From Liolophura sinensis (taxonomy: Eukaryota; Mollusca; Polyplacophora; Chitonida; Chitonidae): 64,000 nucleotides of DNA. The DNA is taken from NCBI RefSeq assembly GCF_032854445.1, contig NC_088295.1, forward strand, positions 32,659,385-32,723,384. Reading direction: 5' to 3'. This document shows, piece by piece, positions 3,212 through 64,000 of the stretch; the stretch's first letter is position 1, and the number at the start of each line of letters is the position of its first letter. The translations under genes and the position numbers were made by a program. The notes below the pieces were generated by a model. That model saw nothing but the letters and a program-made list of their open reading frames with translations. It searched no databases and was not told the origin of the DNA.

Positions 3212-3523
3212 CTACAGTGTCAGGACTACTCTGGCCACTAAAAGCACTGAACTTGGACCCCAACCTGGTGGACACTTTGACCGTGTACTGTACTCCTGGT
3301 GTGAGAGCGGAGGACAAAGCAGACACAGTGATGGTTCTAATCGCTCCATTATTAACCGTCTGTGCAGTAACACCTTTTATCCCTGATGACACGGGGGTTG
3401 ATCCTTGTCCTCTATACAGCTGCACACGAAGCCCATCATACCTACCAGCTGACAGGGTAACTTTCACCTCAACACTGTTGGTAGTGATGGACAGAATCTC
3501 AACACCAGAGGGAGCAGCTGGAG
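3212..3523 (-). CDS. FN3-domain exon, array copy 2
   Basis: This is a 312-bp, phase 1-1 exon with the same acceptor and GTGAGG donor as the other copies. It encodes an open FN3 domain: GVEILSITTNSVEVKV, then YDGLRVQLYRGQGSTPVSSG, then LTPGVQYTVKVSTRLG and GQSSPDTV. It differs from copy 1 mainly in the loop TAQTVNNGAIRTITVSAL and in the C-terminal strand. No frameshift or stop is present. Confidence 0.83.
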
Positions 3524-5700: not shown

Positions 5701-6012
5701 CTACAGTGTCAGGACTACTCTGGCCACTAAAAGCACTGAACTTGGACCTTGACCTGGTGGACACTTTGACACTGTACTGTACTCCTGGTGTCAAAGAGGG
5801 GGATAATCCAGTCACAGTGATTGTTTTCTCTGCTCTATTGTGAACCGTCTGTGCAGTAAAACCTTTTATCCCTGATGACACGGGGGTTGATCCTTGTCCT
5901 GTATACAGCTGCACACGAAGCCCATCATACCTACCAGCTGACAGGGTAACTTTCACCTCAACACTGTTGGTAGTGATGAACAGAATCTCAACACCTGAGG
6001 GAGCAGCTGGAG
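5701..6012 (-). CDS. FN3-domain exon, array copy 3
   Basis: This is a 312-bp phase 1-1 exon that is open throughout. Distinctive residues are YTGQGS, IKGFTAQTVHNRAEKT and SRSKFSAFSGQ. It is almost identical to copy 4 in both exon and flanking intron, the youngest pair in the array. The intron between this exon and copy 4 lacks the ~310-bp segment found near copies 2, 5 and 6. Confidence 0.83.
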
Positions 6013-8191: not shown

Positions 8192-8503
8192 CTACAGTGT
8201 CAGGACTACTCTGGCCACTAAAAACACTGAACTTGGACCTCGACCTGGTGGACACTTTGACACTGCACTGTACTCCTGGTGTCAAAGAGGGGGATAATCC
8301 AGTCACAGTGATTGTTTTCTCTGCTCTATTGTGAACCGTCTGTGCAGTAAAACCTTTTATCCCTGATGACACGGGGGTTGATCCTTGTCCTGTATACAGC
8401 TGCACACGAAGCCCATCATACCTACCAGCTGACAGGGTAACTTTCACCTCAACACTGTTGGTAGTGATGAACAGAATCTCAACACCAGAGGGAGCAGCTG
8501 GAG
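8192..8503 (-). CDS. FN3-domain exon, array copy 4
   Basis: This is a 312-bp phase 1-1 exon and a near twin of copy 3 (visible differences include GVQCSVKV for GVQYSVKV and SKFSVFSG for SKFSAFSG). The conserved Tyr of the F strand is Cys here, the only copy where that core position changes. The frame is intact. Confidence 0.83.
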
Positions 8504-11002: not shown

Positions 11003-11314
11003 CTACAGTGTCAGGACTACTCTGGCCACTAAAAGCACTGAACTTGGACCCCGACCTGGTGGACACTTTGACCGTGTACTGTACTCCTGGTGTCAGAGAG
11101 GGGGATAATCCAGTCACAGTGATGGTTTTCTCTGTTCCATTGTGAACCGTCTCTGCAGTAACACCTTTTATCCCTGATGACACGGGGGTTGATCCTTGTC
11201 CTGTATACAGCTGCACACGAAGCCCATCATACCTACCAGCTGACAGGGTAACTTTTACCTGAACACTAATGGTAGTGATGGACTGAATTTCAACGCCAGA
11301 GGGAGTAGCTGGAG
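11003..11314 (-). CDS. FN3-domain exon, array copy 5
   Basis: This is a 312-bp phase 1-1 exon with an open frame. Its N-terminal strand has diverged (VEIQSITTISVQVKV against VEILSITTNSVEVKV in the others), while the rest matches the family (YTGQGSTPVSSG, LTPGVQYTVKVSTRSG). The mixed pattern suggests gene conversion over part of the exon. Confidence 0.82.
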
Positions 11315-13206
11315 CTGAAAGGACAACAGATTACGCTGCAATCAGGATCTTCAGATCTGTCAACATAAATAGTGTGTTGACGTGATTTGTGGATGGTGCA
11401 GTGAATGATTCTATAGCTGTTATCTGTAGTGCTATTACATGTAGGTAGGCAACTAAGCACTGGATTTAAACCTCACATGGCACACTCAGCATGTGCAAAG
11501 CAATAGTCTGATGATCTCTATATAAAATGCAAGCATTCTTGTCTGGCAGCAGTCTATTACTTCCATGATGAGAAATGTGTCAGTGTAAAAAGTTTACAAG
11601 CCATCCTACATGCTGTCACAATTGTTATTCTTCTCTTCTTCTGGCTGACCATTCTTCTGATCTGCATGTTACAAATTCTGTCCCAGGAAGCATCAATCAG
11701 TGCATAATTGGGTTGTGTTCCCTCAGTCTGGAATATATATGCGCATTGTCCAGGGCACCCATCTTGGAATAATCAGGGGCAAATATATCTGTGCTCTGTG
11801 ACTGCTCAATATTTGCACACTGAATGGCAAGTCAGCATAGGGTGAGACAAAGGCTTAGATTTATTCAGTAAACATTTTTTCTTTTGCACAAAAACATTTG
11901 TTATTTTGTACTCACCATTTTGTCTGAAGTAAAATGTCTAAATCTGATCTCTTGTTTTAAAAATGTTTAAAAGTGGCTGAGGTGTACCTGATCACAAAAT
12001 TATAATCAAAAACTCTCAAAGTTTTTATAGTGTATGTGAGGTACATCATTTACTTTTTTGTAAATTTCAAAGTTTCCAAGGTGTTCCTGAGGTACACCTT
12101 CTAAGAGTTGATTTTTTCTCAAAGTTGCTGAGGTGTATGTCAGGTACATTATCTCATGTTCAAAAATTTCTTTCCCAAAAGTTTCTTAGGTAAACCATTC
12201 ATTTTTTTTTTAACCTTTCAAAGTCTCTAAGGTGTACTTGAGGTGCATTTTCTACGTGTTGATTTTTTTTTTCAACGTTCCGGAGGTACAAGTGAGGTAT
12301 AGGCATATGGCTGGGCTATACTTGAGGTACAGTACACCTCAGATAATACAGAAGGGGTGTACACCCCATATACATCTCACACTAAGGAGTACATGAGGCG
12401 TATTCCCCACACATATCTCGTCTATACCTCACGCTGAGGTGTACACCTCATGTTTGTAAGGACTACACAGTCTGCATGGGCTACAAATTCATAACTGTTG
12501 GATGGAATATGGGCATGTAGTCATAAACTATATACAGTAGTCTAGGAGATTAACACTGCAGGTCAAATATGAGCTTTGGCACGTACTGTACTACATGTCC
12601 AGTACGAAGTATTTTGGTAGCTGATATATCAGTCCATTTCAAACACAATGCAATATGCCTCTTTAACATTAAAAAAACAAGTACTTTATCTCAAAACAAA
12701 TTCTTTTACAAGGACTTTCACAGCACTGATAACCTTTCAACAAAATTCAAGTAGTTTCAAGGCTTCAAAAAACCGGTGGGAATCTTATAACTCAATGGGT
12801 CATGTTCGACTGTCTTCCAAACACTTCAGTTCTTATCTGCACCACATGACATGTTCAGACAGAATCATGATATAGTATTCAGAAAACTATTAATATAAGA
12901 AGTATAAAGCACTCTACAATGTTACATGAAAATAGTGGATAAAACAAAACCAAATATCACATCTATATCCTTGCAGATAAGGACTAATAAAGATTAGATA
13001 CTTGGGAATTTCACTTTTATCAACGACAATTTATATTGTTGTACAGTATACTCAGCATCAGAATCGGTCTCATTACGATATGTTATTTCCATATGTACAT
13101 ATAATTAACTCTCACACTATATTTAATTAGTGGCTTCACTTGTTATTTTTGGCAACATGCATCACACATGTTTTGCAAATCTCTCAGATGAACCATATAC
13201 CCTCAC

Positions 13207-13518
13207 CTACAGTTTCAGGACTACTCTGGCCACTAAAAACACTGAACTTGGACCCCGACCTGGTGGACACTTTGACACTGTACTGTACTCCTGGTGTCAG
13301 AGAGGGGGAAAAACCAGACACAGTGATGGTTTTCTGGTCTCCATTATTAACCGTCTCTGCAGTAACATTCTTTATCCATGATGACACGGGGGTTGATCCT
13401 TGTCCTCCATACAGCTGCACACGAAGCCCATCATACCTACCAGCTGACAGGGTAACTTTTACCTCAACACTGTTGGTAGTGATGGACAGAATCTCAACAC
13501 CTGAGGGAGCAGCTGGAG
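13207..13518 (-). CDS. FN3-domain exon, array copy 6 (first of the array)
   Basis: This is a 312-bp phase 1-1 exon and the most N-terminal copy of the array. Variable residues are YGGQGSTPVSSWIKNVTAE and NNGDQKTITVSGFSPS. The frame is open. The homology with the other units ends about 90 bp further right (near 13606), so this copy sits at the array boundary and its upstream intron is unique sequence. Confidence 0.83.
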
Positions 13519-13606
13519 CTGAAAGGACAACAGATTACGCTGCAATCAGGATCTTCAGATCTGTCAACATAAATAGTGTGTTGTCGTGATTTGTGGATGG
13601 TGCAGT

Positions 13607-46791: not shown

Positions 46792-46866
46792 TTAGTAGCT
46801 GCTGTCTGCCCCCGCTTCTTCAAAGGTGAAGTCAAGACTTTCGTATATTCCAATGTTCATGTATTG
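46792..46866 (-). CDS. Receptor last exon: C-terminal tail with phosphotyrosine motifs
   Basis: 75 bp including the TAA. It reads QYMNIGIYESLDFTFEEAGA-DSSY. YMNI fits the Grb2 SH2 consensus pYxN, and IYESL is another plausible SH2 site. Tail exons following 'HVQ' with this size are common in receptor kinases. Confidence 0.82.
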   Translation of the reverse strand, partial: QYMNIGIYESLDFTFEEAGADSSY

Positions 46867-49800
46867 CTGAAACGTAAGAACAAGGATAGAATGGGTAAAT
46901 GACTGATGTGACTGATATACTTTCAGTCATTTTAGAAAAGTGGTATCCACTAAAGGCATGTTGTAACAGTGAAATAATACTTTTTCAACATATGTTTGAT
47001 AGCCGCCATTGTGTGAGTGAAAAATTATTCATCATGGCGTTATGCAACAATCCAATAAACAAATAAATATTTTTGATAAATGAAAATACTTGTGGAAACT
47101 TAATTCATCTTCTTGGCAACGATAATTTTAGAGTTAACCTGTTAACTTTAACAGAAAGTCTGATATCTGAGAGATGCTAGAATGTATTCTGTTGTCACAG
47201 CAAATTATTCTGTTAAAAAAAAATACAAATATTCCACTGATTCAGCACAACCATTTTATTAGGCTAACATCATATTATGGTAAATATGACACAATATTGT
47301 AATAACAGAATACATTCTAGCATCATTCAGACGGCAGACTTTCTGTTAAATTTAACAGATGAATTGTTTTGACTTATATGGACTATGAAAGTTCTGTCTC
47401 ATACTAATTTTGGATAGTGTGTTAAATTATTTGTATGACATTTCGCACAGGTTATCAGCACAATAGTTACTCCAAGAGAAGAAGAACAGCCCATATCTAG
47501 ACAGAAAGTTCCACGAAATAGATCTTTAGTTTCCAAACTAACCCCACTCAGTAATTTGGAACTTTTGGGGACAACACATCAAAGCGCTTGTGACATTCAG
47601 TATTCCCACTGTTGGGCCTTTTCATAATATTTATACTGACAAGACGTCAAGGGATCAGACCAGGGGAAAACATATTGTTCCCCCCTGTACAGGTGTATAA
47701 GAGGACTAATGTAAGATTCTCCACTAAAAACGTAAACGTGTACCTGTACGTGTGTTGTCATATCGGCCAGTCTGCATGACAAATCCTGAAAGGTAGGTCG
47801 TTCTGCAGGGTCGTCTTTCCAACACTCTAACATTACAGTGTATCTGTGAGGGTAACAGAATGACCATGTTATCAGCAAATCTATAAACTTGAAAGATAAC
47901 TAAAATATTCATGAACAATGGGTTATGAAAATATAAAGTAAATGAACAAGCACTCTGGAAGTCTATATTGCTTTTAGCATTAGCGGTTTGATCCCTCAGA
48001 ATAATGGCTATGTTATAGTCTACAACGGAAACGGCCATCATTTTGTCCAAATTAGGCGACAATGTCCGAATCCCGAATTTGAACTGTAGCTTGTAATGAT
48101 ACCGTCGTGCACCAAGTATTATTGATCCTGTGCGATGGACCGTTTTGGAAAAATATACCAGCAGATGTTTTGTAGCTTACGGACAGATGGGGTCCCCAAT
48201 GGCACCGGTAGGAGGTAAGTACAGACTTAAATAGGACCACGGGAACAGCGATAAGCACTTATATCAACAAATTCAATCACGGCAATATTTAAGCAAATAT
48301 AACGCTTACAATGGAATCTGGCAGGATTTAGGGCAGGCCAGACGACAGTTTTGGATGAGAAGGTGGCGTATCTCCTTGGACTTCATCTTCCCATAAGGTG
48401 TCGCTCCGTAAGTCATGATTTCCCACATCAATACACCAAATGACCACCTGTGGAAGACAATAACCTACGCCTTGATATATTCCAGATGGTCAGTCAGTCT
48501 GAAAGGTGATACTATGAGATAAAGCCTAAAAAGGACAGTTTGGAAATCAAGGTACAAACTATATACACATCACAGGCTACTATATTGTGTATATAGTTTG
48601 TACGTTGAGTGAGTGAGTGAGTGAGTGAAAGTTTTAACGTCGCTTTCAACAATATTTCAGTTTTATCGCGACAATAAAACGTCAAATAGTCGATCTACTA
48701 CGGATATTTCATTTACTATTCAGTCAAAAAGGACACCAGAAGTCACATAACAAACACAGACGGTAGTTTAAAATTACAGCTTTCCTGCCATACCAATGGC
48801 AGAGAGAAAGTCAAAAATAGTATCACTTTCTACAGAATTGAAAAGTTCTGAAAGAGAGCTCACGTGATAAAAGGAATCTCGTACAGGAGCAAAGTCGCCA
48901 CAGTCAAGCAATATGTGCTTGACTGTGAACCGTTGATCACAAGCAAAGCAATGAGGAGCATCTTCTCCTTTTAACAAATACCCATGCGTAGCACGTGTGT
49001 GACCGATACGACACCTCCTCAAAATGCAAGAGCGGAGACGATGCCGTGAAAGGGAAGGCGCTGGACCAACAAACTGACGAATATCATGCAGTTTGTTGGT
49101 TGTCTGGCCATCCCATTGAGCCTGAAACAAGCGCTTGATATAGGAGCAAATAAGTGAACGCAAGTCCGAATATGGAACGTCAGTTTGGGTAGTAACGGAA
49201 TGCAAAGCCGCCTTCGCGGCTTCATCTGCAGCAGTATTCCCAGGGATACCCATATGCCCGGGCAACAAAAGACAATGATAAAATCTTCATTAAGTCGTTT
49301 AAACATCTCCCTGATAGACAGAATGTCTGGATGTACAGGCGAACTAGCCCGAATTGCCTGGAGGCAGGAAAGGGAGTCAGAGCAGATGAGAAATCTGCTA
49401 CCTCCTAGCTCTGGAATGGACCGAAGTGCGCACAAAATTGCCTTGGCTTCCGCAGTAAATACAGAACAGGAATTTGGAAACCGAGTTGAAACGGTTCTGG
49501 GTCCAAGGACAGCGGCAGAAGCCACGCCATCATCATTCTTGGAACCATCAGTGAATATGCGGTGATAAAATGGATACTTTGAACACATATTACTAAACTC
49601 CTGCTGGTATACTAAAGGGTTGGTGGAACATTTCTTCAGGGAGGAGAGCGAGGTATCAACCTGAGGCTCAGCACATAACCACGGTGGATCTTCCTGGATG
49701 AGTTTGTACGTTGATTTTCAATATCCCATTTCAGAGAGTTGTTTGGAGTTAAACGTGAAAATCCACAGTACCATTCAGACAAAGTAACCGCTTTTAGGGA

Positions 49801-52800
49801 CTGCAACTGGTTTTCACAAAAGTTTAGTAACTTGCCTTGTTTGGTACATTATGGACTAAAAGAGATCTTAGATCAAACAATTGATTACACACTTACGGTA
49901 TGAAGACGTTATTTGAGCAAAACGCTTTTGCTTAAAACAGAAGAAAACCTAAAACAATGACACTATAGGCTAAAAGGAGCATATTTTTTATATCTGGTGG
50001 TGCCATTTGCATAATTTTGCGATTTTTTCTCCCCATACACGTAAAGCCTGAAAACGGCAAAGCTGGCCTAAATCGCTGAGCCCATCGCGCCCTCCATCTT
50101 TAACATCTTGAAATTTATGCTGGGAGTGTGTTGCCTCTCAGCCAATGAGAGTTGTTAAAACTGTCTGATTATCCGTGTAAACATGGAACGTACATCCAAC
50201 ATTCCCGTTTCCCCATGGTCAAACGGAAAACGACCTGTACGGTTCGCTACCTTTTGGGAAGAAGAGTTCTACCGTAAATGCACGAACTGCACTTTGACGG
50301 TTTCCGACGGCAATTCTCCTCCTAACACAAAAGACTTCAGGACTAGTTCTTATGCAAAATGGAGTCGCCCACAGCGTATTTTGGCGCGGACTTTATAATT
50401 TATCAACTTGAGGTACATATTAGAATTTTTTTTAGGGCATGTACCTGCGAGGAAATGCATACTCTTTTCATTGGTATTTGTTTGATATTTAAATTTTCTT
50501 CTCCTTTAAGTAAAATAATTTAGGCACATTAGCCCAAACTGAGATTAACACATACGATCTGGGAAGGTCTGTCACCAACCTGCAGATGGTCGTGGGTTTC
50601 CCCTGGGCTCTGTCCGGTTTTCTCCCACCATAATGCTGTCCGCCGTCGTATAAGTGAAACACCAATCACAAAAATAAATAAATTAACACTTTTGAACAGC
50701 TGGTTCATGACTGTCCTTCTTGCCCTTTTCATGACGTACAACGTCTGCAGTAGACTTCAAAGGGCAATTTCATTATGAAATGTCACACATTAAGTCCAAC
50801 TGTGACATACGGTAACTTCAAATAAAAGCCCTTACACTTCACTCTGTTGTGAGTAGACCTTCCCCTCCAGAGTCTCAACAGAAGCCCATCTGCAGTGTGG
50901 AAAGGTGAACTAGAATGAAAAATTATTTTCAGTATGAACGTAATAATACTGTAAGACAAAATGCATGTATTTCTTTGATACAAAAATTGCTTTACCCTTC
51001 AACTGAAACTTACCATTAATTTTTCAATTGCTAAAAATACAAAACAACTTTGCTAAGCTGAGGATATACCTGGCGGTAATTATTTGCTTACTCTTTGATT
51101 TTGCTAAAGAAATCCTATCAAATTTACCTTAGCCACATCTTTTGGTTCGAATCCGACCGGCCTTGCAAGCTGGAAGCCAGATATCTTTGCCGTCAGGTCT
51201 CCACCAACCAGAACGTTCACAGCTCGTAGGTCTCCATGAAGGATCTATGCAGGAGATTTAGCAACGGGAGCTTACTCAGTGCTGACAAAAACTAGGGAAC
51301 ATTTTGTCGACATAGAAGTATGTTTAATGCTATTTTCAGCTTGGTTGAATTATGGCATTAAATGTTTAGTGTTCTACAAATTGAACTATCTGGACAGTAA
51401 TGCAAAATGAACTAAAAACAACACATGTTTTGGACATTCTGATTCGTCCTCGCTTACTAATACTTGGATAAACTTGGCAGAGATTAAGTGTCGCACCCAC
51501 ATAAAGTTCATGGTGGTTGCAAATACATAATGGTTGTGGCACTTGACCTGCGTTTCACCTATACCTCTAGCTGTGATAGATGCGCCATACCCTCGGCCAC
51601 ATTTTCAGCAAAGAGCAAGAGATTAGCTTCTGTCAGTTCTTTATTTGATCCACTTCGTCTTTTATCCCTCAGAAAACTCTGTAAATCGCCCCTTTCTTCA
51701 AAGCCGTTGATCAAGAAAACGGTGTTATCTGAAAATTGGAACACATAGACATCATTAACTAGTTATACAGACAAAGTTATCTAAAAAGCTACGGCTGTCT
51801 GTTATCACGAAATGAACCTGTATACAAGCCACTCAACACGACTAAACAACCAACATCCTCGGGTCATTTCTTTATACCTATTATAATTTGTAGAAGAAAT
51901 TGCAGCCACGTGTTGAGTTAAATGATATCAGTCGAGTTTCCGGCAGGATAAAAAACCTGATTTAATAATAGGTAAATATAATATAGTGCCAATTTTCTTG
52001 AGGATGGCGTAAAACGCCATTCAAAGAAGTAAGTAAATAATATGGTGTCAGAACACAAGCCCACCCTGTTCATGCAATGCACGTTTTCATTTGTGCTTGG
52101 ACGTTAAAGACTTGACAAACAGTGATGTGCTAACGTATGGCAAGACCAGGCTCTGTTCACATGAAAGGATAGAGGTGACTTTAGTGTGATTGCTTGGCCA
52201 TTTTCGAACTATGGTGTTACTGATAACACCGGTGAGTGAGAATATGAGACAAGGACTTACCGTCTTGTATGGAGTAACCTAGGAAGCACACGACGTGTGG
52301 ATGGGCTCCAATATTCCGCATAATATCTATCTCTGCCTTACATCGCTCAAATGGATTGGCTCCTTTAATGCGAAAAATCAACATATTGTAGCCATCAATG
52401 CACCGCATATTTACTCTAACGCAATTAATTGTGTATTGTGGCTTTCGTGGGTCAACAGCTTACCAGGTAGGATGAGGGACTCTCCATCAATAAGTGGTTT
52501 TAAACAAAGATTACTAAAATGTCTACGATATAGGTTTTACATTCCCCATCTAAATTTTTATGCAGGAATGATTTGGTATTGATCTCTATGATTTTTGTAT
52601 ATTGTGTGATTTAACTTTTTACCTGTCGTGGAAATAAAATATTTTAAACACCTACAAAAAAGTTTATACTTTATTACATTTTACCTGTCGATAAAATAAG
52701 ATTTTTTTTAACACTAACAAAGATTTACACTTTATTTTTTCGCTTTTTACAGAAAGTTCTGTGTTTCTGATTTTCTAATGATATTGGTATATTTATAAGT

Positions 52801-55800
52801 ATATTGTTATTGTTTTTGTGTTTGAAAGATTTGAGACGAAGGGCCCACCCTGGAAGCAGCCACTCGGGTTGAGGGAGAGTAGGCATCCTGTTCAAATAAA
52901 TTATGTATACCATTCTATACTTAAACTGTTTAAAGTATGGTATCACTACTGATGTGTACGTAAAACTGAGAGATCCAAGCTAGTTCAATTTGTGATAACA
53001 ATCTACATCTACAGCTACAGGGGGCTGCAGGACTGAGCCAAAAGGGTAGCTTGTTTTTATTGATTTTTTTACTTTCGTGTATTTTAAACTGAACTCAAGA
53101 GTGTGTCACTTTTACGACAATTTGTCACATAGAATTGAAAATTGGTATGTGACTTCACCGTGGCAGATTATGTACATATCAAGTTTTGCGATCTTTTGTT
53201 CTTTTTCAGCGAAACTACGACCACTTATGGTTGGTCAGTTTTGTAAAGTAAAACCTAGTAAATTGCTTTAAGGAAAGAGGTGATAAGTCATTTACTCTTC
53301 GGGGTTTTGGTAAACTTCGTTTATTTTCAAGAAATTTATGTTCAGAATTTTGTTGTGGTCTTGAACATAATTATTACTCTAACGTCTCAAAGGGATGGAC
53401 TCATAATAACAACTACAGTACAGGCTTGTTTTCCTATGTGAACTCTTTTGTCTCGAAACAATTGCATCAGTTAAGATGCTCATAATTACATGAAAATTTA
53501 CCTGTGATTTTTCTGATGGCGACGCTCCTCTGATGCCCATCAGCCTCCTGAAGTGTTCCTTTTAGCACTTTATGTTTACCTTTGTTCAGATTTTCATTAG
53601 AAACTCTCAGACGGAATGCTGATATCGCAAGTTGATTAAATCGCATACCCTCGTATTTCCCCTCTGATTTGTTTGGAGCCTGGAAAGTGATCAAGTGATT
53701 GAAAAAGAGATTTCCCGCTCAGAACTGAGCGAATATTTGTAATTTATAAACAGATGTTTTCAATACCGACTAATACTGTCGCAAAATGTGAGTGCGGGTG
53801 CATTTCGTGACCATGCTTTTAACACCGCTCATCATTCTTACTGCATTTTTTCGGTTACTTTTCTGCACAGATTAGAAGCTGACGTTCAGTCAGGAGGGTT
53901 GTCATGTGGACACCCCTACCTGGTGGGGGGTGGTGATCGGTTTTATCAGGGCTCAGTCAGTCCGGATTTTGCTGTTACGCACATGGGATATTATTTAGTA
54001 CATTATATGTAATAGTGTAATATCAAAGGCACATACATAAAAAGGGAAAAGTGGAGCAAGATGGACCCTCGGGGAGAAATGGGACAGTTCTCAGATACAC
54101 ATAATACTCGTGCTGCCACCTATGTTGCCGCGCCGAGAATCAGAACGAGGACGATGTAAAACAACAACAACGTCGTTATTAAAAGCACACGTGGACATGG
54201 AGTCATGCTAGCGGCCCTTTATGAATTTTGACCCGCCTGATGTAAGGTAAGCACATTTTTAGCCTCCCTATGAGCATAATTTACCTTGAGATATATTGCC
54301 ATAAATATATTCGTCTGAAACTTTGCATAATGAGCTATCACGAACAAGTAAATAATGTAACATCAGAAATGGCATGAATAATGCATGCAAAACGCTACTG
54401 AAGCAGTTAATTAGCGATTAGGTATCCGGAAAGTCAGCGCACAATTTGGTGTACAACAATCAACTCTTGGCCGAAGGGTGAAAGACACAAACAAACATGC
54501 CTAAGGATCGTCCAAAGTACTGTGACGTTTCAAAGTAAGTATTCTAACAGGTTTAGTAACTTTACACCTTTTCAAAGGATAGACTAATCATAAAATTCTT
54601 CTTCAGTTATATCTCTGGAATATTACAAAATTAATTAAATGTGAATTGTTGTCATAAAATCGGTATAAAAAATGTAAAAGTTATATATCTAACTATCTTG
54701 TAAAATAATGGTACATAATACAGAATACCAATCTGGGGCATGTTCTACAAAGTATGGACAATATGACGACGAAGGTTGATGTTGTCATAGTTATCACAGT
54801 CCCAACTTTGAGACTGCTTCGTGGAAATGGTCTCAGGGTCGCGTTCTACAAAGTTGCTCCGTGACAAGGTATACCCTTAGTAACTTTGCAACTGCTTAAT
54901 AAAACACGGTGCACTGTATAAAAAAAGAGATGCATACTTCGAAACTTCGAAAAAGTGGCGGTTAGTCCAACTTGACCAACCTTTACTATCTTTAGCTTTT
55001 TGCGTTCTTTTGGGATTCATGTTTACCGTTGTTTTGAAAATGTGTCATGATATTAGTAATCCAGAACGCCATTCATCTGCTGGCGATATACGAATGTATT
55101 TTTGATGCTTGGAAACTCTGTATTATGAATATGTCAATCCATACTATGGGGGTAGGAAAGTCTGTCAGTGACACTGTTTTGTTCTGGCACTGTTTAAACC
55201 CTGAGTTTCTCCCAGTACCAACGCTTAATTGAACACCACAGTTTTGTCGAATCATTAATTTGTAACTAGTTTTTCTTTCTTATCTTCCAGACCGTTTTCT
55301 CGTCTCCGATAGAGCAGGATCTTGTTGATTATATCCTCAACATGGAAACCATGATGTTTGACTTGACAACTTCAGATGTCAGAAGTCTTGCATTTCAAGT
55401 GGCACATGAGAATGAAATAGCTAACCCATTAATGATGAAACTTGCAAAGCTGGTAAAGGCTGGCTATGGTGTCAGTTTGGTGTCAGCAGAAAGAGGTCAA
55501 CTGGTCACAGTAGAAATATGCATTAGCGTCACTGGGACATTTATTCCCCATTGTTTGTCTTCCCAATGTTACGCATGAAGATGGAACTGATGAATGGCGC
55601 ACCGCCTGGTTCAATCTACGCTTGCCATAAAAGTGGGTGAATGCAGATGGACATATTCACAACATGGTTCCAGCACTTTATTCGATTTTCTGGTGCTTCC
55701 AACGACAACCGCGTTCTACTCATTCTGTATGGGCATGCTGCTTACACAAAAACATACAACTGATTGATTTGTCCAGAGAGAATGGGGTGGAGTTACTATG

Positions 55801-58800
55801 TCTACCATCACACTGCTAACATATAATGCAACCATTAGATGTCAGTTTCATAAAACCACTATCAACCTATTATGACCAGAAGTTAGAGAAATGGCTACGC
55901 AACAACCCCGGTCGAGTAGTTACTACCTTTCAAGTTGCTGATCTCTTTGGTCAAAGCAGCCACAGCTCAGACGGCTGCGCACGGGTTCAGAAAAACCGGA
56001 ATATTTCCCAGCAACCGAAATATTTTCCAACCACACAAGTTTGCTGCCGCAAAACCAACAGATATTTCAAATCTAAACCCCCAAACGGTCAACCCATCGA
56101 TCAATTTAGATGTTGTTGAAGGTATCCCAACAGTTACAGCAGCTGATGAGTCCGTTTCAGGCGTGACCGTAATCCAGGGAGCTCTGGTTGAGCCGCAACC
56201 CACTCTGCCAATTCCGTCAACATCTGGCAGACAGGATGAGTCCATTCACTCGTGACCGTAATCCAGGAAGCTCTGGTTGAGCTACTACCCACTCTGCCGA
56301 TTCCGTCAACATCTGGCAGACAGGATGAGTCCATTCACTCGTGACCGTAATCCAGGGAGCTCTGGTTGAGCTATTACCCACTCTGCCGATTCCGTCAACA
56401 TCTGGCAGACAGGATGAGTCCATTCACTCGTGACCGTAATCCAGGAAGCTCTGGTTGAGCCGCAACCCACTCTGCCGAATCCGTCAACTTCTGGCAGACA
56501 GGATGAGTCTAATTTCTGTGTACCCGCAATCCCGGAAGTTCCAGAGACTCGGTCCAAAAATTCAACCTTTTCCAATGCTCAGCCACTCTCTACGCCTGTA
56601 TCGTCTTTCATGAGGCAGTCCTCTGATACCAATTTAGTTTTGCCATGCTACTTGTCACCATTTGACATTTCACCCCCACCCAGACTTACCGTCAAACAAA
56701 CTGGGAAACCAAATGTCCGTCGTGGCAAGGCAGCTATTCCCACCAGCAGTTCACATAAATCCTTGCTTCTTGGTAATAAAGTCCAGTCTGTCAAAGCAAC
56801 ATCTAATTCACGTCCGCAACGCAACAACATCAACACAAGGTAAAGGAAAGGTACATGAGGCCACCTTCCAAAATCACTGGTTGTGACTTATGTGGCCAAA
56901 ACCTCTGAAGTTGCAGATGTAACACACCCTTCACTGGAAACTGACACAGAATGTCTCTATTGTTCTGAACTGTGGAGCACAAGCACCAATGGAATGATCC
57001 AATGTACAATATGTTTACAGTGGGTACACCAAGCTTCCACTGGCATAGATGAGAGCGAGGATGCTTTAAATTGCGAACTGTGTAACTAATCAATTAAACT
57101 GGAAACAATACCATGATATTTTTAACGGTGTGCGTTGTTACAAGTGTCAATACAAATACCAAAATTTGTTTGTTGTGCTGAAACACGTGTTGATTCCTTA
57201 ATTCATACGTTTGGGCAAAAAGGGACAGACCAAAATTTTATTTTATGTCGGAATTGTCCACGCGTACAAAACTACAGCTATCAATAAATGACTGATATCG
57301 TGTCCGTTCCTCACAAATTCTCTGTTCTTACACAGCTGCTTTCAAATTTAGCTACACACAAGTACGTGAAGTTAAGTCTCCCATCTTGCCCCACTTTCCC
57401 CTAACCAATAACCAATATTTAAATTATCCTTCAAAACGAAAAGAACAGCATCTTAAATATATTACATAAGATAGTTCTGGTAACAACATAAGATAGGCCA
57501 TCAAAGCATTACTATAACAACAACTGTCTTACTGGTTTCATTGTCTCATAAGGATCCATATTCAAGTCTTCAGCCCTAGGCCTCTCATGACGACGCCTGA
57601 AAACAAATATCAAAGATCACTTCACACCCTATCAATCCTTCTGCCGAAATTCCCTGGAAAAAGTTATGGCTGAATGTACAAATTTTAAATAAAAAATGAC
57701 CCAAATGTCACCAAATTACTTTCAACTCAGATTACAAAATCACTTTGAACATGCAAGCATTAAAATAAACCAAGTCATCTGTTTCCTGATTTCCTGAGTA
57801 TGAAAACAATTTTGAATGTAATCTAAGTATATAAGTACATACATACAAGTATAAGCAGAATCCTAGTGGGGAAAATGCTGATCAATGCTAGCTAGTACAT
57901 ATAATGTACAAGGGGTTCATTACAGACACTGATGTACATAATCATATACACATTTATATATGTTATCTGTAATTCTGTTAATTATTTTTCCATAAAATAT
58001 ATTTCAATGTTTATTGAATGTAGTTTATACACAAATGGGTTCAGCTTGCATGCGATGAATTAAATTCCAGCCAATAAAGATAGCCATAATTTAACCAATC
58101 GGATGAGATCTGAAACAGCCAGTAGTTTCACAGTAATTTCAGCCAATACTATTTCAGTAGCAGGGTGTTGCAGCCAATAGATGTAGAGTGGCCTGATGAG
58201 TTTAGGAAAGTTTTCAGAGCACATGGTTCAATTAGCCAGTTGCAGTCTGCATTTGAGGATCCAACTTGTCTACTGCATTGAGCAAACCCTCCTACATCCC
58301 CTTAGCACCTCAACTCGATGAATATTTCAGAACTTTGTCAGATTTGTCAGCATTACACTTCGATATACAGTAGTGTGAACGCGCTATTCATATTGTATGA
58401 TCTTAGACCGCTGTCTGAGCAATAACATGGACCAAGTAATAGCATATTACAAGTGAACCTCTGTTCACAACTACTAACATAAGTGAACCGCTTTTCACAA
58501 GCAAGAGCAGGGACAGTTGTCCTATACTAACATCTTTTACTAACAGGGACCGCAGTTCTATACTAACATGTGAACGCGCTGTTCACAGTCATTTACTAAC
58601 ATGAACCGCCGAGTAAAGTTGTTCACAAACTCTTACTCTCACTAGGATGTGGAGCTACCAGAATTCACTGATAGGACATGCACTTATATTCATTTTTCAT
58701 GTCATCATCATTGTATCCAGGTTGTGAGTTCACATTGTTACCTATTGAATTTTGCATGTCGGCTCATATGTTTATCCATGACAAATTATTCAACTAATAA

Positions 58801-61800
58801 AGATGTCAAACGGACTTCATTTTTGTTTTGTTGTGTATAAAAATCATTTTATTAATTTCTGCTGTTGAATACATACGTGTCCTTTTGTTTCTTCTGATGT
58901 TTAGATCGCACTGTGATCACAACAATAACGGCGAGAAGAATGATTATCGCCAGGCCACATGACACGCTGACAGCAATGGTTATTGTCTTGTAATCCTTTT
59001 CCTCTGCAACATCAGATATAATCAGATCTTTAGCTCTGTGAGCACTCTGCTATGTGTTTAATACACACATTTATTCACCGTTCATAATGTCATATATTAA
59101 TGTCACATTATGTCACATACTGATTAAGGGAATAGACGCTGACATTTTACACTCAAGGGGTATTGTCTCTATTTCATTTGATAAATAAAAAAAGCTTTCA
59201 AAAAGGTATATTAGTGCGCGCATATCTTTAATTATAATTTATAAGAATGATAAACAATTCTAATTATTAACAATTGACAATTCTCTAATTGAAACAAACA
59301 CAAAGAACATGGCCAGTTTTAAATTATTTATTAGAATAACTATAGCAGTACGAATATTGATACAGAATATAAGTTGTACATATAATACATTATTTATTAT
59401 GCTAACTGTTCATAAATAATTTAGATCAACACGACTAATATGTTCATATTCATCAAAGATATATCAACCTTACACTATCTACAAGTCCCCATTCTACACA
59501 CGGGCAATAACTGTGGAAATAACTGATAGACGCAACCCGCACAGCACACACACACCCGGACATCGTTTCTGTCATGTTTACAAAGTTTCAAGGCATTGAC
59601 AAGGTAATGATGACGGACACACGGATGGATGAACTAAGTCACAAACAGAGAGACAAGCAGACAACCTGATTGCTGTATCCATCCATATCATATGAGGAGG
59701 AGATAAAAATGGCTAAAATATCAAAAGCTTACGCACAAATCAACCTGATTTTCAAGCCTGAACTAAGATTTCACAATGTGACCAGCACAAAATTTGTTCT
59801 TACCTAGGACTAAATGGAGTGCAGCTTCACGGCATTACCAAGACAGTATCAAAACATAATTTTATCCCCTCAATGTAACATGTACTAAAATGATATGGAA
59901 AAGACATGAATATGAACTTTCCTTTTTATAGAATACGACTCGAACCAGTTCAACATGCTAAAAAACAAATCATGATTTTCATGTCAAATTTTCTTCCCAT
60001 TAATTTAATGGCTCTTGTGCCGGGACACACCACATCATCCCGAAACCATCTACATACATGTATATGTATCATCTATGCTTGTATTTTTTATCCCACCACT
60101 TTTATATCTCTCCTTGTTTATGTGGCATGTCGAAGAAACCAAAATCTCTCCTAGTAAGCTGAATCATGATACGAACAGTGCTGTCAAAATTTTGATTATC
60201 ATTTGTACAATCAATCATCATGTTTCATGATGATGTCTTTTCAACTTCATCATCTTCAACTTCCTCTACCTGGCACAAAGAACTGTTGGCATCTGCTAAA
60301 ATGAAGAAACACAGCAGCTATGCACACCTTTGTATCAGCCTTAATTTGCAGATTTGTGTACTATCCAAAAATAATAAAATTACTTCTAAAAGAGTCAACA
60401 GTTGCCAACAAATCCCTCAAATAAAAAAAACAACAATATTTATTATTGTTATAAATTCCTATTTGGTACCCACAGGGGAGCACCACAAAATATAAGAACA
60501 TAACAATGGCTTCAGAAACTCAATAGTACATATAAAGGTACTAACCTTGACGAGCTTTCAGTATGATCTCTGCTCTGAAAACGCGCCTTAAAACGGGAAA
60601 AACAGCAATCCCTATATTGTACTAGGTTTTGACCGTTTATACAGAGTTTACATTTTCCTCACAAAATATGATTATTAAAATATGTACCTATTATGGTTTT
60701 ACTTTGAAACTTTGATAGGTAAAACTGGCATCACATAAATTTTGAGTAATATGTCTAGAGAAAAGATTTTTACAGCAAAAATGATACCAGTTACCAGATA
60801 CCTGGTAGTAACTTGACATATTTGTGATGTTATATATTACATACTAACATATTCCATAGATTTGTGGTTTCTAAAACACAAAAATTTAGGTGGAAAATAC
60901 TGCAGACAGAGAATCAAATGATTTTTCAGTAAGCAACTCTGTCCTATTCTATTATTTATTTATTGATTTGGCAGATTTATAGTGCCACTGTAGCAAATTT
61001 CCCACTTTTATGACAACTGTCAGGGAAATGGTTGGAGCCTGAGGCAAGCCAAATACCCAGAGCAAACCAATGGTAGGCCTGCTGACTTAAAGCCAAAACT
61101 GAAACTGCCAGAACTGCATTTAAACTTGTGCTCTCATCTGTCAAGTCTTGTCATCAGATATACAGTGAGCCAGCGCTTCTGAGGAAGCAAGCCAAGGCTG
61201 GAGTGTAATTGCTTGGGGAAAGCATTAAGTGCCAATATTTTCTAACACCATACTGAAGAGAAATAACAAACCTACTGTATGACTGATGCCAAGAATTCAG
61301 TTTCATTTTATGATCTAAACTATATATATCAGTGTTTTGGAAAGACAAAATATGAAAAGCATTTGGCCTAAAGTCAATTCAGAGATGTAGACATACCTTT
61401 GGTTCTATATCCCCCAACATACTTCGTCTCAGTGCATCCCCCTGCAGTACAGGAAAAGGCTTTCACTCTGTAAGGACAAATCCCCTGACTATTCATAGCT
61501 GTTTGTAATGTATATATATATATAAGCCTTTAAATGTGACTTTACACAAAGGATTATTCTATAACCCTTGACCGTTTTCCTATTACATAAGAAAGTGACC
61601 AAAGACTATAAATGTCACTTTAGACTCCAATTTATAGCAAACAGAAAGAAGAGACATTACAATTCACCTTTAACTCCCTCTTTCAACCTAAATAATCCCT
61701 CCCTTGATCTCTTTCACCTAAACAAACCTACTCACATTATTTTCTGTGCAGTCTGTAACCTTACACTTTCTGCTCACCAGGTGTATGTATTGGTTATCGA

Positions 61801-64000
61801 CAACTTGATCACCTAAAGAGTTACCAATTAAATTCAGAATGCCAATATGAAGAAATGATCAAAAACAAAACTGTGGATTTTTATGCAGTCCATACCTACC
61901 TACTTCAACAGCGAGACAGGCATTTTCAAAATTATATATGATTTACTTCCCACTTCAATGATGCTTTACCTGCAATCCATGCCTGGAAGCAGGGGACCGT
62001 TACAGAAACTGTCCACACCTTTTGTACTACAGTTTGTGTCTTCTCCCACAGTTAATGTAATAGCTGCTTCCCTCTTAGATCGACTACCACCAACTTGAGG
62101 GGTGGAAACAGAAAGAATGAAATTAATTTAATGTCCAACTATATAGGATCAGTTCCTAGAATAAAGGCTTAACTAAACATAGTTTTAGCTACGGGTCGAA
62201 AACAGTTATACAACAGCAACACATCACATAAGAAAGTGGCGACAGCAGTTAAACTGATTTTGAACCTGTTTGATTAAAGTTGTTGAAACTTTTAATAGTT
62301 TTGTTTCTAGTGTCATAAAACCTCTGTAAAGTTTCTTTAGACTGGATGCTCTTTGTCTAAAAATCAGATACAATGTACTGGCTCATACTGGCAATTTCCT
62401 GACATGGAGTCAAAAATACTCACTTTATTTTCAAAGCATCTCATAAAGTAGAGCCTTTCTGGATCAGCCATATTCATATTGACACATATGAAACAATCTG
62501 AGGATTCTCCATAACCTGTGCTTTATGTATCACTGTCTTATTTTCATCATGAAAAGGTTTTTTATTCAGCTTTAAAGTAACATGTTGGAATATATATAGA
62601 GAAGCTTATACCTGTCTGAAAAGACCAGCCTAAAGGGGTAGCTCTGTAGGGAATTTGGAAATTATCTTCGTTGGCTTTGTACCAGTTGTTAAACTCTATA
62701 AAATGGTCAGCTTTCATATTAGCCACTGTGCTGGAGACTACAACAGAGAAAGGTAAAACAAAAAAAAACAAAAAAAAGCAAACTGAGTTCTGTGCAGGAT
62801 AACTTATCAGGCATTAATCAAAGCACTAAACAGAAGTTAATCTATCTATGACAACCGACAAACTGATCTATTGAATTTTCAGCATTGGAGAGAACATATT
62901 TTCTAGCATGTTGACCAAACAGGATTAAAGTTTCTGTAATGAAACAAATCTGACACCAACTAAATGTGTCTTCTGCTTCAAACAAAACATATATGTTAAT
63001 TGGATAATTAGCATAGTCCTACTTACTTCATTGAGGACACTTAAGCACTCAAAACTAAAACATAAAATTTCATGTTTAGTACCATAAATCTGAAATTATC
63101 ACCTAGTACACATCTTGGCAATAATTACCTGTAGATTCATTGCTTTGCACTGCATCAACCACAAGGCCATAGTCTGTGATTTTTCCATTGGTATCATTTG
63201 AGAAGAAATCTGTTGTGATTGTGAGAGAGAAGGACCTGGCACTCTCTGGTTCAGACAAGGAGGGTTTGGTGTCAGAGCAGCCTATCACACAGCCGGTCGG
63301 TTGTGGTGGATCTGAGCAGAGAAAACCAGCACCATGATAAAAACACAAACAGCTATTCAGTGTCGTGCTCAAGAACACTTGACTTGAATATACATACATG
63401 TATGACAGCAGTCAGTTCCATTAATGGAGGAAACAGCAGTTCACAGGATAAACCACTGACCTTTGGCAAGTAACAAATACACTTTCCCACATGCGATGTA
63501 TAAATTCTCACTTTATTGGTGAAGGGCAATTCCAAGTGCTGTACTTTCTTAGAATAAACGTTCACTGTGATTACCAAATCGGAAATGTCCGGTGTAACTT
63601 TACTGAGGTAAGCTCAGATAAACTCAAGGATTTCACCAAAGGAACAAATTCCAGGAACATTAATTACCTGTATCAACATTCATGCCATCACAAATTCAGG
63701 GAAATACAAGAAAACAGATGTATTGTACATACCAATGATGCTTTTACTAAATGACTGTCACTAAGCTATTACATGGGTACAACAAATGAAATGAAACATG
63801 AGAGGAAAATCATCACATGCTCTAAATGTTCGGGTTAAAATGCTGAACTTTCACTTTATGAAAACATAAGCTATCAGCCACAATGTTGCAGACCACAACT
63901 ACTGAATTACATGAATCCTCATTTAAATGTAGATGTTGGAGAATGTCCTCCATGTCTGCTTTTACACCAAATCTGCACTTACTTCCAGCAGGAGAGTAGT
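46792..64000 (-). CDS. Receptor tyrosine pseudokinase gene, 15 visible exons (5' part outside window)
   Basis: Exons run 63983-64000, 63129-63311, 62612-62737, 61970-62093, 61397-61467, 58877-59003, 57533-57596, 53502-53679, 52261-52362, 51565-51728, 51128-51244, 50836-50909, 48310-48447, 47744-47843 and 46792-46866. All use GT/AG borders and all phases match, giving one continuous frame to a TAA. The product is a type I membrane receptor: extracellular FN3-like and membrane-proximal modules, one transmembrane helix, short juxtamembrane segment, a full protein kinase fold and a 25-residue tail. ATP-site motifs are lost (no GxGxxG, VAIR, HGD, GFQ), while fold residues (aC Glu, HxDxxxxN Asp and Asn, WSFG) remain. 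I expect a scaffold or allosteric partner rather than an active kinase. Large introns host a LINE, a pogo element and a MITE. Confidence 0.85.
47139..47358. mobile_element. Foldback MITE of 220 bp in a receptor intron
   Basis: The two ends are inverted copies of about 60 bp: 'ctgttaactttaacagaaag' ... 'gatgctagaatgtattctgt' on the left and its near-exact reverse complement on the right, with about 100 bp between. The outermost 16 bases (CTGTTAACTTTAACAG) are themselves nearly palindromic. No coding capacity. The autonomous partner family is unknown. Confidence 0.75.
47744..47843 (-). CDS. Receptor exon: end of kinase domain
   Basis: 100 bp, phase 2 to 0. It reads YTVMLECWKDDPAERPTFQD, then LSCRLADMTTHVQ. 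'M..CW..DP..RPTF..L' closes the tyrosine-kinase domain. Confidence 0.9.
48310..48447 (-). CDS. Receptor exon: kinase helix F-G region
   Basis: 138 bp. It reads WSFGVLMWEIMTYGATPYGK, then MKSKEIRHLLIQNCRLACPK, then SCQIP. 'WSFG.L.WEI.T.G..PY' is fully conserved with active receptor tyrosine kinases. Confidence 0.9.
48552..48603. repeat. Perfect 17-bp inverted repeat with 18-nt loop
   Basis: GTACAAACTATATACAC at 48552-48568 and its exact reverse complement at 48587-48603. It ends exactly where the tail of the inverted LINE begins, inside a receptor intron. Confidence 0.8.
48606..49810 (-). mobile_element. I-group LINE 3' end in a receptor intron
   Basis: On the minus strand an RNase H domain begins FYHRIFTDGSKNDDGVASAA, continues FTAEAKAILCAL and LICSDSLSCLQAI, and after one frameshift (near 49265) reads LPGHMGIPGNTAADEAAKAA. 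A Cys/His segment (CFACDQRFTVKHILLDC) follows, ending at a stop near 48774. The 3' UTR ends with 'gcgacgttaaaactttcact' and (CACT)n. The reverse transcriptase is missing by 5' truncation. It sits between the receptor exons 50836-50909 and 48310-48447, in the same orientation as the gene. Confidence 0.8.
50560..50692 (+). mobile_element. SINE family 1, truncated copy
   Basis: Forward 3' half: 'ctgcagatggtcgtgggttt', 'ccataatgctgtccgccgtc', tail 'aaaaataaataaatt'. Lies in a receptor intron. Confidence 0.78.
50836..50909 (-). CDS. Receptor exon: P+1 loop to SEV
   Basis: 74 bp, phase 0 to 2. I chose the acceptor 'tttcattctag' because it gives phase 0; a nearer 'ctgcag' would break the frame. It reads FTFPHCRWASVETLEGKVYS, then QQSEV. 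This corresponds to '..(K/R)WMAPE.L....Y...SDV' with APE changed to SVE; the Glu that bridges the lobe is kept. Confidence 0.8.
51128..51244 (-). CDS. Receptor exon: degenerate catalytic loop and DFG segment
   Basis: 117 bp, exactly 39 codons, phase 0-0. It reads ILHGDLRAVNVLVGGDLTAK, then ISGFQLARPVGFEPKDVAK. The HRDLAARN loop is HGDLRAVN (catalytic Asp and Asn kept, Arg lost), and DFG is GFQ, so the Mg-binding Asp is gone. No Tyr occurs in the activation segment. Confidence 0.87.
51565..51728 (-). CDS. Receptor exon: kinase hinge to helix E
   Basis: 164 bp, phase 1 to 0. It reads NTVFLINGFEERGDLQSFLR, then DKRRSGSNKELTEANLLLFA, then ENVAEGMAHLSQLE. 'ERGDLQSFLR' corresponds to the '..GDLxxFLR' helix D of receptor kinases, and 'AEGMAHL' to the helix E end that precedes the HRD loop. 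Confidence 0.86.
52261..52362 (-). CDS. Receptor exon: kinase helix C and strand b4
   Basis: 102 bp, phase 1-1. It reads ANPFERCKAEIDIMRNIGAH, then PHVVCFLGYSIQD. The Glu of helix C (KAEIDIM) and the 'GAHPHVV.FLG' block are conserved, which places the exon unambiguously in a tyrosine-kinase fold. Confidence 0.85.
53502..53679 (-). CDS. Receptor exon: kinase N-lobe, strands b1-b3
   Basis: 178 bp, phase 0 to 1. It reads NKSEGKYEGMRFNQLAISAF, then RLRVSNENLNKGKHKVLKGT, then LQEADGHQRSVAIRKITG. In an active receptor kinase the first part of this stretch holds GxGxFG; here there is NENLNKGK. The b3 VAIK/VAVK lysine is arginine (VAIR). Both are direct ATP contacts. Confidence 0.83.
54415..57089 (+). 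pseudogene. pogo-like DDE transposase with C-terminal PHD-like finger, inactivated
   Basis: A helix-turn-helix of psq type (IRKVSAQFGVQQSTLGRRVK, about 54436-54482) precedes a GTAAGT donor at 54535. The frame resumes after 'tatcttccag' at 55291: TVFSSPIEQDLVDYILNMET. Next come a shortened middle, ERGQLVTVEICISVTGTF, and, after a frameshift, LILYGHAAYT where DGHAAHT is expected. PLDVSFIKPLS follows. The first catalytic Asp falls in the deleted middle and the second is Tyr, so it is dead. Near the 3' end (56960-57089) a finger CLYC...CTIC...H...CELC resembles a PHD domain with one zinc ligand replaced by Ser (HQAS). Internal 89-bp repeats lie between. Confidence 0.7.
56144..56510 (+). repeat. 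89-bp tandem repeat inside the transposase gene, 4 copies
   Basis: The unit 'gatgagtccattcactcgtg' ... 'ccgtcaacatctggcagaca' repeats at 56144, 56234, 56323 and 56412 with a partial copy at 56501. The first unit is 90 bp; later ones lost a base and read into TGA, so each copy carries the same frameshift. The loss therefore predates the copying. Confidence 0.85.
57533..57596 (-). CDS. Receptor exon: juxtamembrane segment with YETM
   Basis: 64 bp, enters in phase 2 and leaves in phase 0. It reads RRHERPRAEDLNMDPYETMK-P. YETM fits the YxxM consensus for the SH2 domains of the PI3K p85 subunit if phosphorylated by a partner kinase. Confidence 0.78.
58370..58640. repeat. Cluster of short palindromes, GTGAAC...GTTCAC type
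   Basis: At least five imperfect copies of 'gtgaacgcgctgttcac' or 'gtgaaccgcttttcac' are separated by 'actaacat'-type spacers within 270 bp of the intron next to the transmembrane exon. The pattern suggests a decayed small satellite or a hairpin-type element. Confidence 0.55.
58877..59003 (-). CDS. Receptor exon: transmembrane helix and stop-transfer
   Basis: 127 bp, acceptor 'ctgatgttgcag', donor GTATGT. It reads EKDYKTITIAVSVSCGLA, then IIILLAVIVVITV, then RSKHQKKQKD. A hydrophobic segment of about 24 residues is followed by a basic stop-transfer cluster, so the N-terminal side is extracellular and the kinase side cytoplasmic. Confidence 0.88.
59010..60945. other. Receptor intron, no further feature recognised
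   Basis: AT-rich intron between the transmembrane exon and the last ectodomain exon. Short open frames (for example 60220-60495 plus) show no domain signatures. Confidence 0.5.
60951..61200 (-). mobile_element. SINE, third family, in a receptor intron
   Basis: (ATTT)n at the left, then 'gccactgtagcaaatttccc', 'aactgtcagggaaatggttg', 'gagcctgaggcaagccaaat', and a possible tRNA-like head at the right ('ccagcgcttctgaggaag'). Orientation is minus. The body differs from families 1 and 2. Confidence 0.55.
61397..61467 (-). CDS. Receptor exon: end of ectodomain
   Basis: 71 bp between a 'ttgtccttacag' acceptor and a GTATGT donor. It completes the Arg codon and reads VKAFSCTAGGCTETKYVGGY-RTK, the last strand of the membrane-proximal module. 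Two Cys could form a local disulfide. Confidence 0.75.
61970..62093 (-). CDS. Receptor exon: ectodomain with CNGPL motif and furin-like site
   Basis: 124 bp, enters in phase 1 and leaves in phase 2. It reads GGSRSKREAAITLTVGEDTN, then CSTKGVDSFCNGPLLPGMDC. The block 'C.....FCNGPL.PG..YR' is the conserved end of the R3-phosphatase-like module (the Tyr before Arg is Cys here). RSKR at the start is a consensus furin-type cleavage site. Confidence 0.8.
62612..62737 (-). CDS. Receptor exon: membrane-proximal ectodomain, part 2
   Basis: 126 bp, phase 1-1. It reads SSTVANMKADHFIEFNNWYK, then ANEDNFQIPYRATPLGWSFQ. The spaced aromatic residues (W, Y, W) match the middle of the same ectodomain module. 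Confidence 0.78.
63129..63311 (-). CDS. Receptor exon: membrane-proximal ectodomain, part 1
   Basis: 183 bp, phase 1-1, acceptor 'ttttctctgctcag'. It reads PPQPTGCVIGCSDTKPSLSE, then FSLTITTDFFSNDTNGKITD and YGLVVDAVQSNEST. The 'F...FS...G.I..YGLVV' pattern is that of the membrane-proximal module of R3-type receptor phosphatases. Two N-glycosylation sequons (NDT, NES) are present. Confidence 0.8.
63983..64000 (-). CDS. Receptor exon: end of an FN3-like domain (partial)
   Basis: Only the last 18 bases are inside the window, ending at a GTAAGT donor in phase 1. They read YSPAG, the usual end of an FN3 domain before a phase-1 intron. Confidence 0.55.

Follow-up and report, generated by a model that had tools for sequence, protein, structure and literature searches.

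What can a receptor do with a kinase domain that looks dead and keeps an open reading frame? This question is raised by a locus in the chiton Liolophura sinensis, within a stretch of 64,000 nucleotides (the window; C1:32659385-32723384 of a 609-Mb assembly, C1 being contig NC_088295.1). The minus strand of the window at 46792-64000 holds, as read from its sequence, the 3' portion of a gene for a predicted single-pass receptor of FN3 type, which we name copy B. Here a dead-looking kinase appears to be joined to the outer half of a phosphatase receptor, in a tandem family whose neighbours include phosphatases that share this outer half and have intact catalytic motifs. Most work on receptor pseudokinases deals with single members of ancient families (ErbB3, PTK7, ROR). 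With the present locus it becomes testable how a pseudokinase may come to be retained, namely by serving as a docking substrate with a phosphatase partner of its own.

A kinase domain without most of its ATP-site motifs

The kinase coding sequence (CDS) of copy B is composed of eight exons (K1-K8) with GT-AG ends at all seven introns, and its 948 nucleotides (nt) encode 315 residues without an internal stop. The CDS runs from 53679, the start of the first kinase exon, to 46792, the end of the stop codon, exactly the limits given by a first-pass annotation of this DNA, whose eight exons splicing in phase are likewise recovered as a predicted chain. K1 (53502-53679) encodes the end of the juxtamembrane (JM) region and an N-lobe without the Gly loop (NENLNKGKHKVLKG) and with VAIR, and K2 (52261-52362) contributes helix C with its Glu (KAEIDIM). 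The hinge and helices D/E lie in K3 (51565-51728), HGDLRAVN and ISGFQ in K4 (51128-51244), and the end of the activation segment, with WASVE for APE and no preceding Tyr, in K5 (50836-50909). K6 (48310-48447) carries WSFG and the C-lobe, which ends in K7 (47744-47843; ERPTF), while K8 (46792-46866) encodes the tail with QYMNIGIYESLD and the stop and aligns with the tail of TIE2. All eight exons were assigned by GT-AG ends and frame, K1 also by PF07714. Two boundaries were chosen: for K5 the acceptor CTAG immediately preceding 50909, since use of CTGCAG, 20 bp further inside, would break the frame, and for K2 the acceptor TTAAAG. The domain scores 206 bits against the Pfam model PF07714 (cut-off 23.1) and is therefore not a chance frame; the window gene is absent among the matches listed in a whole-genome PF07714 search. 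Upstream on the same strand, a JM exon (57533-57596), identified from its sequence, carries DLNMDPYETMKP, a YxxM motif.

A protein search of the whole genome identified six pseudokinase copies, named A to F, within 0.43 Mb on C1, the five besides copy B being located at C1 32.643-33.076 Mb. The models of these five are the window exons projected onto the fetched sequence, and AG and GT are kept at the projected boundaries in five of five. The same eight kinase exons, of equal lengths and with open frames, are present in all six copies; the only stop seen is in copy F, which ends one codon early, at the last codon. In protein, the five other copies are 91-94% identical to B, and 265 of the 315 columns are invariant over the six. 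The JM and tail tyrosine motifs are also invariant in six of six: YETM in the JM region, which we take to be a PI3K-type YxxM docking site, and YMNI and YESL in the tail, the former presumably a Grb2-type YxNx site. Readings of the tail as an immunoreceptor tyrosine-based activation or inhibition motif (ITAM, ITIM) were rejected, as in our own reading the spacing and flanks misfit.

Every motif loss described in the first-pass annotation is present: copy B has no Gly loop, VAIR, HGDLRAVN, GFQ and no Tyr in the activation segment. At least one of the VAIK Lys, HRD Asp and DFG Asp is lost (VAIR, and G-F-Q for DFG; the HRD Asp is kept), and further changes turn APE into SVE and SDVW into SEVW. 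The altered ATP-site residues are common to all six copies, except that copy A has GLQ in place of GFQ. The exon translations of copy B also retain, as had been described, the helix-C Glu, the loop Asp and Asn, WSFG and the C-lobe. The earlier wording that all ATP-site motifs were lost is therefore right about the losses and slightly strong in its "all", since the catalytic Asp, the Asn and the helix-C Glu remain. From the loss of the Gly loop, the beta-3 Lys, the HRD Arg, the DFG Asp and the activation-loop Tyr, the domain of copy B is predicted to have no phosphorylating activity, and binding of ATP is improbable. That the HRD Arg and the activation-loop Tyr are missing together would suit a domain that loop phosphorylation has ceased to activate. 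Some pseudokinases still bind nucleotide or act as weak kinases through non-canonical residues, and the catalytic Asp, loop Asn and helix-C Glu kept in six of six copies would suit this; however, the Gly loop, beta-3 Lys and DFG Asp have gone from the same six, together with the HRD Arg and the activation-loop Tyr, which makes such activity very unlikely here.

The ratio of non-synonymous to synonymous change (dN/dS; pairwise NG86, bootstrap ranges in brackets) among the six copies is 0.45 (0.29-0.68) over 315 codons, 0.35 (0.21-0.58) over the 269 kinase codons and 0.41 (0.08-1.84) in the tail. The kinase introns of copy B differ from those of the other copies by 10.0% on average (range 3.2-16.3%, 35 comparisons) and the kinase exons by 0.6-10.8%. 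A neutral expectation was simulated on the tree of five aligned introns, with a total length of 0.263. It predicts 10.2 stops in the kinase CDS against one observed (P(at most 1) = 0.0005) and 14.5 indels against none (P(0) = 5e-7). From the dN/dS of the kinase codons, which lies away from 1, and the open frames against the neutral expectation, it follows that the kinase part of copy B is under purifying selection: it is a maintained pseudokinase and no decaying gene. The suggestion of the first-pass annotation that selection keeps the fold is thereby borne out. In K1 and K3, dS is near zero, yet the divergence of B from the other copies in nearby introns is about 10%; the dN/dS values of these two exons (26 and 1.9) are unusable because synonymous change is almost nil. 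The first 22 codons of K1 evolve fast (dN 0.087), almost only at amino-acid sites.

Decay does occur in this cluster. Four more divergent relatives (G1-G4; L011-L014) yielded an incomplete set of exons, and in all four the catalytic loop is cut by a stop directly after HGDLRA, HGDLSA or YGDLRT. On predicted splicing, five of the six copies read through the transmembrane (TM), JM and kinase exons in phase with no stop inside, namely B, D, E and F together with A, which uses a TM exon of its own. The exception is copy C, whose TM exon (C1:32820349-32820471; L003:7350-7472) carries a 1-nt deletion relative to B, D, E and F that shifts the frame, which points to a receptor that is broken or soluble, or else to a mistake in the assembly. 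These cases, with the early stop of copy F, are what one would cite for a decaying pseudogene whose motifs were lost, whose kinase drifts and whose frame is open by luck. Against it stand six of six open kinase CDSs with AG and GT kept, the kinase dN/dS and the many stops and indels expected at the intron rate, so that a neutral pseudogene was rejected on dN/dS and on the simulation, and we regard decay of copy B as highly improbable.

An outer half of receptor-phosphatase type

The TM exon of copy B (58877-59003) is of receptor-phosphatase type and shares 93.7% DNA identity with the TM exon of a neighbouring gene, P1. Upstream of it four ectodomain exons were placed on the minus strand with approximate bounds: ec4 (61395-61482), the last piece of a PTP_tm-like domain, ec3 (61972-62106), ec2 (62613-62744) and ec1 (63127-63309). 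The likeness to P1 includes the introns and forms a tract of two pieces at 58839-64000 that runs past the window end; in window numbering, the DNA alignments cover 58839-61503 at 94.6% and 61628-65290 at 95.6% identity. Comparison of 179 ectodomain codons between B and P1 gave 11 non-synonymous against 7 synonymous changes (dN/dS 0.46). Their ectodomain is conserved, with no sign of diversifying selection.

A genome search with the TM exon and ec1-ec4 returned 35 matches, all within C1:32.57-33.08 Mb. Ectodomain matches without a downstream pseudokinase exon were found near 32.572, 32.785 and 32.961 Mb, the exons being B-like at the first (C1:32572651-32574426) and C-like at the other two. In a PF00102 search each of the three is followed downstream, on its own strand, by protein tyrosine phosphatase (PTP) exons, at 32563167, 32780278 and 32955482, and the fetched regions likewise contain PTP exons in three of three. 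We name these genes, which are interleaved with the pseudokinase copies, P1, P2 and P3. WPDFGV, HC and SAGVGR[ST]G are present in three of three, the active site being split by an intron, and P1-P3 are read as receptor tyrosine phosphatases with intact catalytic motifs, predicted frames and putative activity. Among single-domain PDB chains, a P2/P3 composite matches PTPRB best (162 bits), followed by vascular PTP 1/PTP10D (154) and PTPRJ (150); tandem-domain chains such as PTPRS outrank PTPRB via summed scores. The window gave no match to the PTP query, and copy B has the pseudokinase in place of the single cytoplasmic PTP domain. Copy B is therefore no member of the R3 receptor phosphatases; it carries the outer half of such a receptor.

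Domain scans of five ectodomain pieces agree with this type. FN3 exceeds its cut-off of 25 in three of them (two from B, one from C; 25.6, 32.3 and 41.8), and PTP_tm exceeds its own in one, of C type (27.4 bits, cut-off 26.3). No Ig or EGF domain was over the cut-off in the pieces scanned, which stop short of the 5' end of the gene. The R3 phosphatases (PTPRB/VE-PTP, PTPRJ and Drosophila PTP10D) share with these ectodomains the FN3 repeats and the membrane-proximal PTP_tm domain, and differ in bearing a phosphatase where copy B bears a pseudokinase. In the consulted part of PMC5336234, PTPRQ, PTPRB and PTPRJ are given a larger juxtamembrane FN3 and protostomes a single ancestral R3 gene, and the string "mollus" does not occur there. 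Outside the cluster, C1:51344370-51352012 (L033) combines a PTP_tm match over the cut-off (42.5 bits) with PTP exons and is a possible R3 gene. Runs of PTP-domain exons also lie at C7:5.8-6.3, 17.2-20.4 and 29.8-30.1 Mb, C15:0.04-0.73 Mb and C3:24.25-24.51 Mb, and the genome seems to hold several large tandem arrays of tyrosine phosphatase genes.

The two halves of copy B meet near base 57660 (57630-57690, minus strand), inside the TM-JM intron, where copy A matches solely on the 3' side and P1 solely on the 5' side. The likeness between copies A and B runs from the stop codon up to 57660 and resumes only at 65.8 kb and beyond, and B matches P1 over a stretch of 82% identity from 57660 to 57790. 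In five of the five copies B-F, the match to A ends at A:32648929 and the match to P1 begins at P1:32569718-32569721; with softer scoring, the A and P1 matches of copy C overlap by about 30 bp. A and P1 are unlike each other around the junction, and the TM exon of copy A, in phase with JM, is its own. A junction at one base in all five, together with A's own TM exon, therefore indicates that B-F consist of a phosphatase-type TM and membrane-proximal half and the pseudokinase. As far as can be read from sequence, B-F are chimeric, their pseudokinase being TIE/RET/FGFR-like and their ectodomain that of an R3-like phosphatase, with the join in the TM-JM intron. G1-G4 are too diverged to reveal a junction.

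Exchange in the cluster was not confined to this joining. Two ectodomain types are distinguished, the B type in P1, B and D and the C type in P2, P3, C, E and F. Copy C departs from B upstream of window base 60861, and the ectodomain exons of C, E and F resemble those of P2 and P3, so the ectodomain has been exchanged at least once more. The most 5' fetched kilobase of B is 90% like that of A, and P1 was perhaps not fetched that far. In copy D (L006; C1:32883008-32886957), two adjacent tracts both match the membrane-proximal region of P1, an internal duplication.

Kinship of the kinase part and its possible role

A family profile of the pseudokinases was compared with PDB chains. TIE2 (TEK, the angiopoietin receptor) is the best single-family match (151 bits), ahead of FGFR3 and RET (both about 144.5) and MET (about 136.6). 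The top rank itself goes to a tandem EGFR construct, whose score is the sum of two domains at 118.6 each. The TIE2 alignment extends through the kinase into the C-terminal tail, where YVNTTLYEKF stands beside YMNIGIYESL. TIE2 is an active kinase with FN3 beside the membrane, and the TIE family ectodomain consists of Ig, EGF and FN3. The window gene differs in two respects: TIE2 kinase chains keep DFG (and HRDL in 2oo8 and 1fvr), which are lost here, and its TM and membrane-proximal ectodomain are of receptor-phosphatase type.

Orthology to ROR or PTK7 was rejected, as other genes of this genome are ROR-like (395 bits against ROR1) and PTK7-like (217 bits against PTK7), and neither ROR nor PTK7 is among the best 60 of 1606 PDB matches to the family. 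No close canonical sister was accepted either: the longest matches beyond the cluster, at 34-35%, are to two genes on C7, of which one is ROR-like and the other looks similar, and short-exon matches of 50-53% at C7:22.63 Mb look Src-like in our own reading (HRDLRAANVLV). The genome match list scores candidates only, and a canonical sister may have been overlooked. Among the best matches in titles and abstract openings of open-licence literature, we found no mollusc receptor pseudokinase and no pseudokinase/receptor-phosphatase chimera, which does not prove absence. The consulted portion of an oyster kinome paper (PMC4883820) names a Tie kinase and uses "inactive" once, for receptor guanylate cyclases; that of PMC8662651 has nothing on mollusc receptor pseudokinases or such chimeras.

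What, then, would the chimera do? The explanation of the whole that we favour, with moderate confidence, is that the receptor with a pseudokinase and a phosphatase ectodomain acts as a phosphotyrosine scaffold paired with P1-P3. Another kinase would phosphorylate YETM in the JM region and YMNI/YESL in the tail in trans, and the pseudokinase would serve as the scaffold, docking at those tyrosines. The paired phosphatases would meet the same ligand, or adhere, via the same ectodomain, and may dephosphorylate or sequester the scaffold tyrosines. The first-pass annotation had the receptor signal through a partner kinase. The likely mechanism shifts from an ErbB3-like pseudo-receptor tyrosine kinase to a pseudokinase/phosphatase receptor pair, because the gene belongs to a tandem family and its TM and ectodomain are those of a phosphatase in the same cluster.

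The pairing has a parallel in vertebrates, where VE-PTP, an R3 phosphatase, associates with TIE2 (PMC5146956, as consulted in part); the portion of PMC5336234 seen states that most known substrates of R3 phosphatases are receptor tyrosine kinases. Both halves of a VE-PTP/TIE2-like pair would come to lie in one locus through the fusion of a TIE-like pseudokinase with an R3-like ectodomain. The predicted product, a dead-looking kinase in a single-pass receptor, also resembles ErbB3, PTK7, ROR, RYK and EphB6. These receptors have dead or impaired kinase domains, and docking tyrosines of ErbB3 are phosphorylated in trans. PTK7 and ROR differ in that genes like them exist separately in this genome. 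To our knowledge, none of the five carries a phosphatase-receptor ectodomain.

Receptor phosphatases are subject to control by dimerisation. Together with the B ectodomain, about 95% like P1 in DNA, and with the catalytic motifs kept by P1-P3 in the same cluster, this would also suit a dominant-negative or decoy receptor, whose tail is a folded plug and whose ectodomain binds ligand or heterodimerises with P1-P3, lowering their activity, with no phosphotyrosine docking. A plug, however, needs no YETM and YMNI...YESL invariant in six of six copies while neighbouring JM residues change fast, and copy A retains the pseudokinase with a TM exon of its own; we therefore consider a decoy rather unlikely.

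Several observations weigh against the scaffold reading, or against parts of it. The gene model is read from genomic DNA alone with a predicted splice chain, and the partner kinase, the ligand, the activity of the phosphatases and their action on the tail are all putative. Copy C shows that a full receptor is not encoded by all copies, unless the assembly is wrong at that point. The dN/dS is moderately rather than very low, and the almost complete lack of synonymous change in K1 (dS 0.002) and K3 (dS 0.009) is unexplained. Copy D is a mosaic: its TM-JM and JM-K1 introns resemble those of B (97% and 95%), and its kinase introns side with C and E (93-98%; F was not compared); recombination is therefore active and the copies are not independent. 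The B-type ectodomain scores 15.7 bits for PTP_tm, below the cut-off of 26.3, so that its assignment rests on homology to P1 and the C type. Remains of a phosphatase-type ectodomain also occur in G1-G4, which, together with the A-like 5' kilobase of B, leaves the older architecture unsettled. For the kinase, the profile lead of TIE2 over RET and FGFR3 is just 6-7 bits, and with the single sequence of B, RET (150 bits) ranks above TIE2 (144).

The near-matching outer parts suggest paired receptors that may read one signal and act differently. In paired immune receptors, activating and inhibitory forms share their ectodomains, and this cluster likewise has neighbours with near-identical ectodomains and different cytoplasmic tails. 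The differences are that the tails here are a phosphatase and a pseudokinase, and that B and P1 lack the sign of diversifying selection. A wider version, which we put forward tentatively and rate as possible rather than probable, is that phosphatases and dead kinases share one evolving set of ectodomains, traded by recombination in the cluster, so that a single ligand would be sensed by a phosphatase and also by the phosphotyrosine scaffold on which that phosphatase naturally acts. If true, this shared-ectodomain system may perhaps serve in adhesion, allorecognition or immunity.

Repeat-like tracts in the window

The remaining observations concern other open frames of the window. Inside the K5-K6 intron, an open frame at 49019-49717 (minus strand) resembles the RNase H part of a retrotransposon in our own reading. 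In the intron upstream of K1, broken frames at 55270-56843 (plus strand) similarly resemble the transposase of a DNA transposon, and a short repeat array lies near 56130-56560 within the same stretch. Elsewhere on the minus strand, open frames of equal length recur at 390-740, 3189-3539 and 13184-13534 (116 aa), and a second such set is found at 5687-6028, 8178-8519 and 10989-11330 (113 aa); each set suggests a repeated element.

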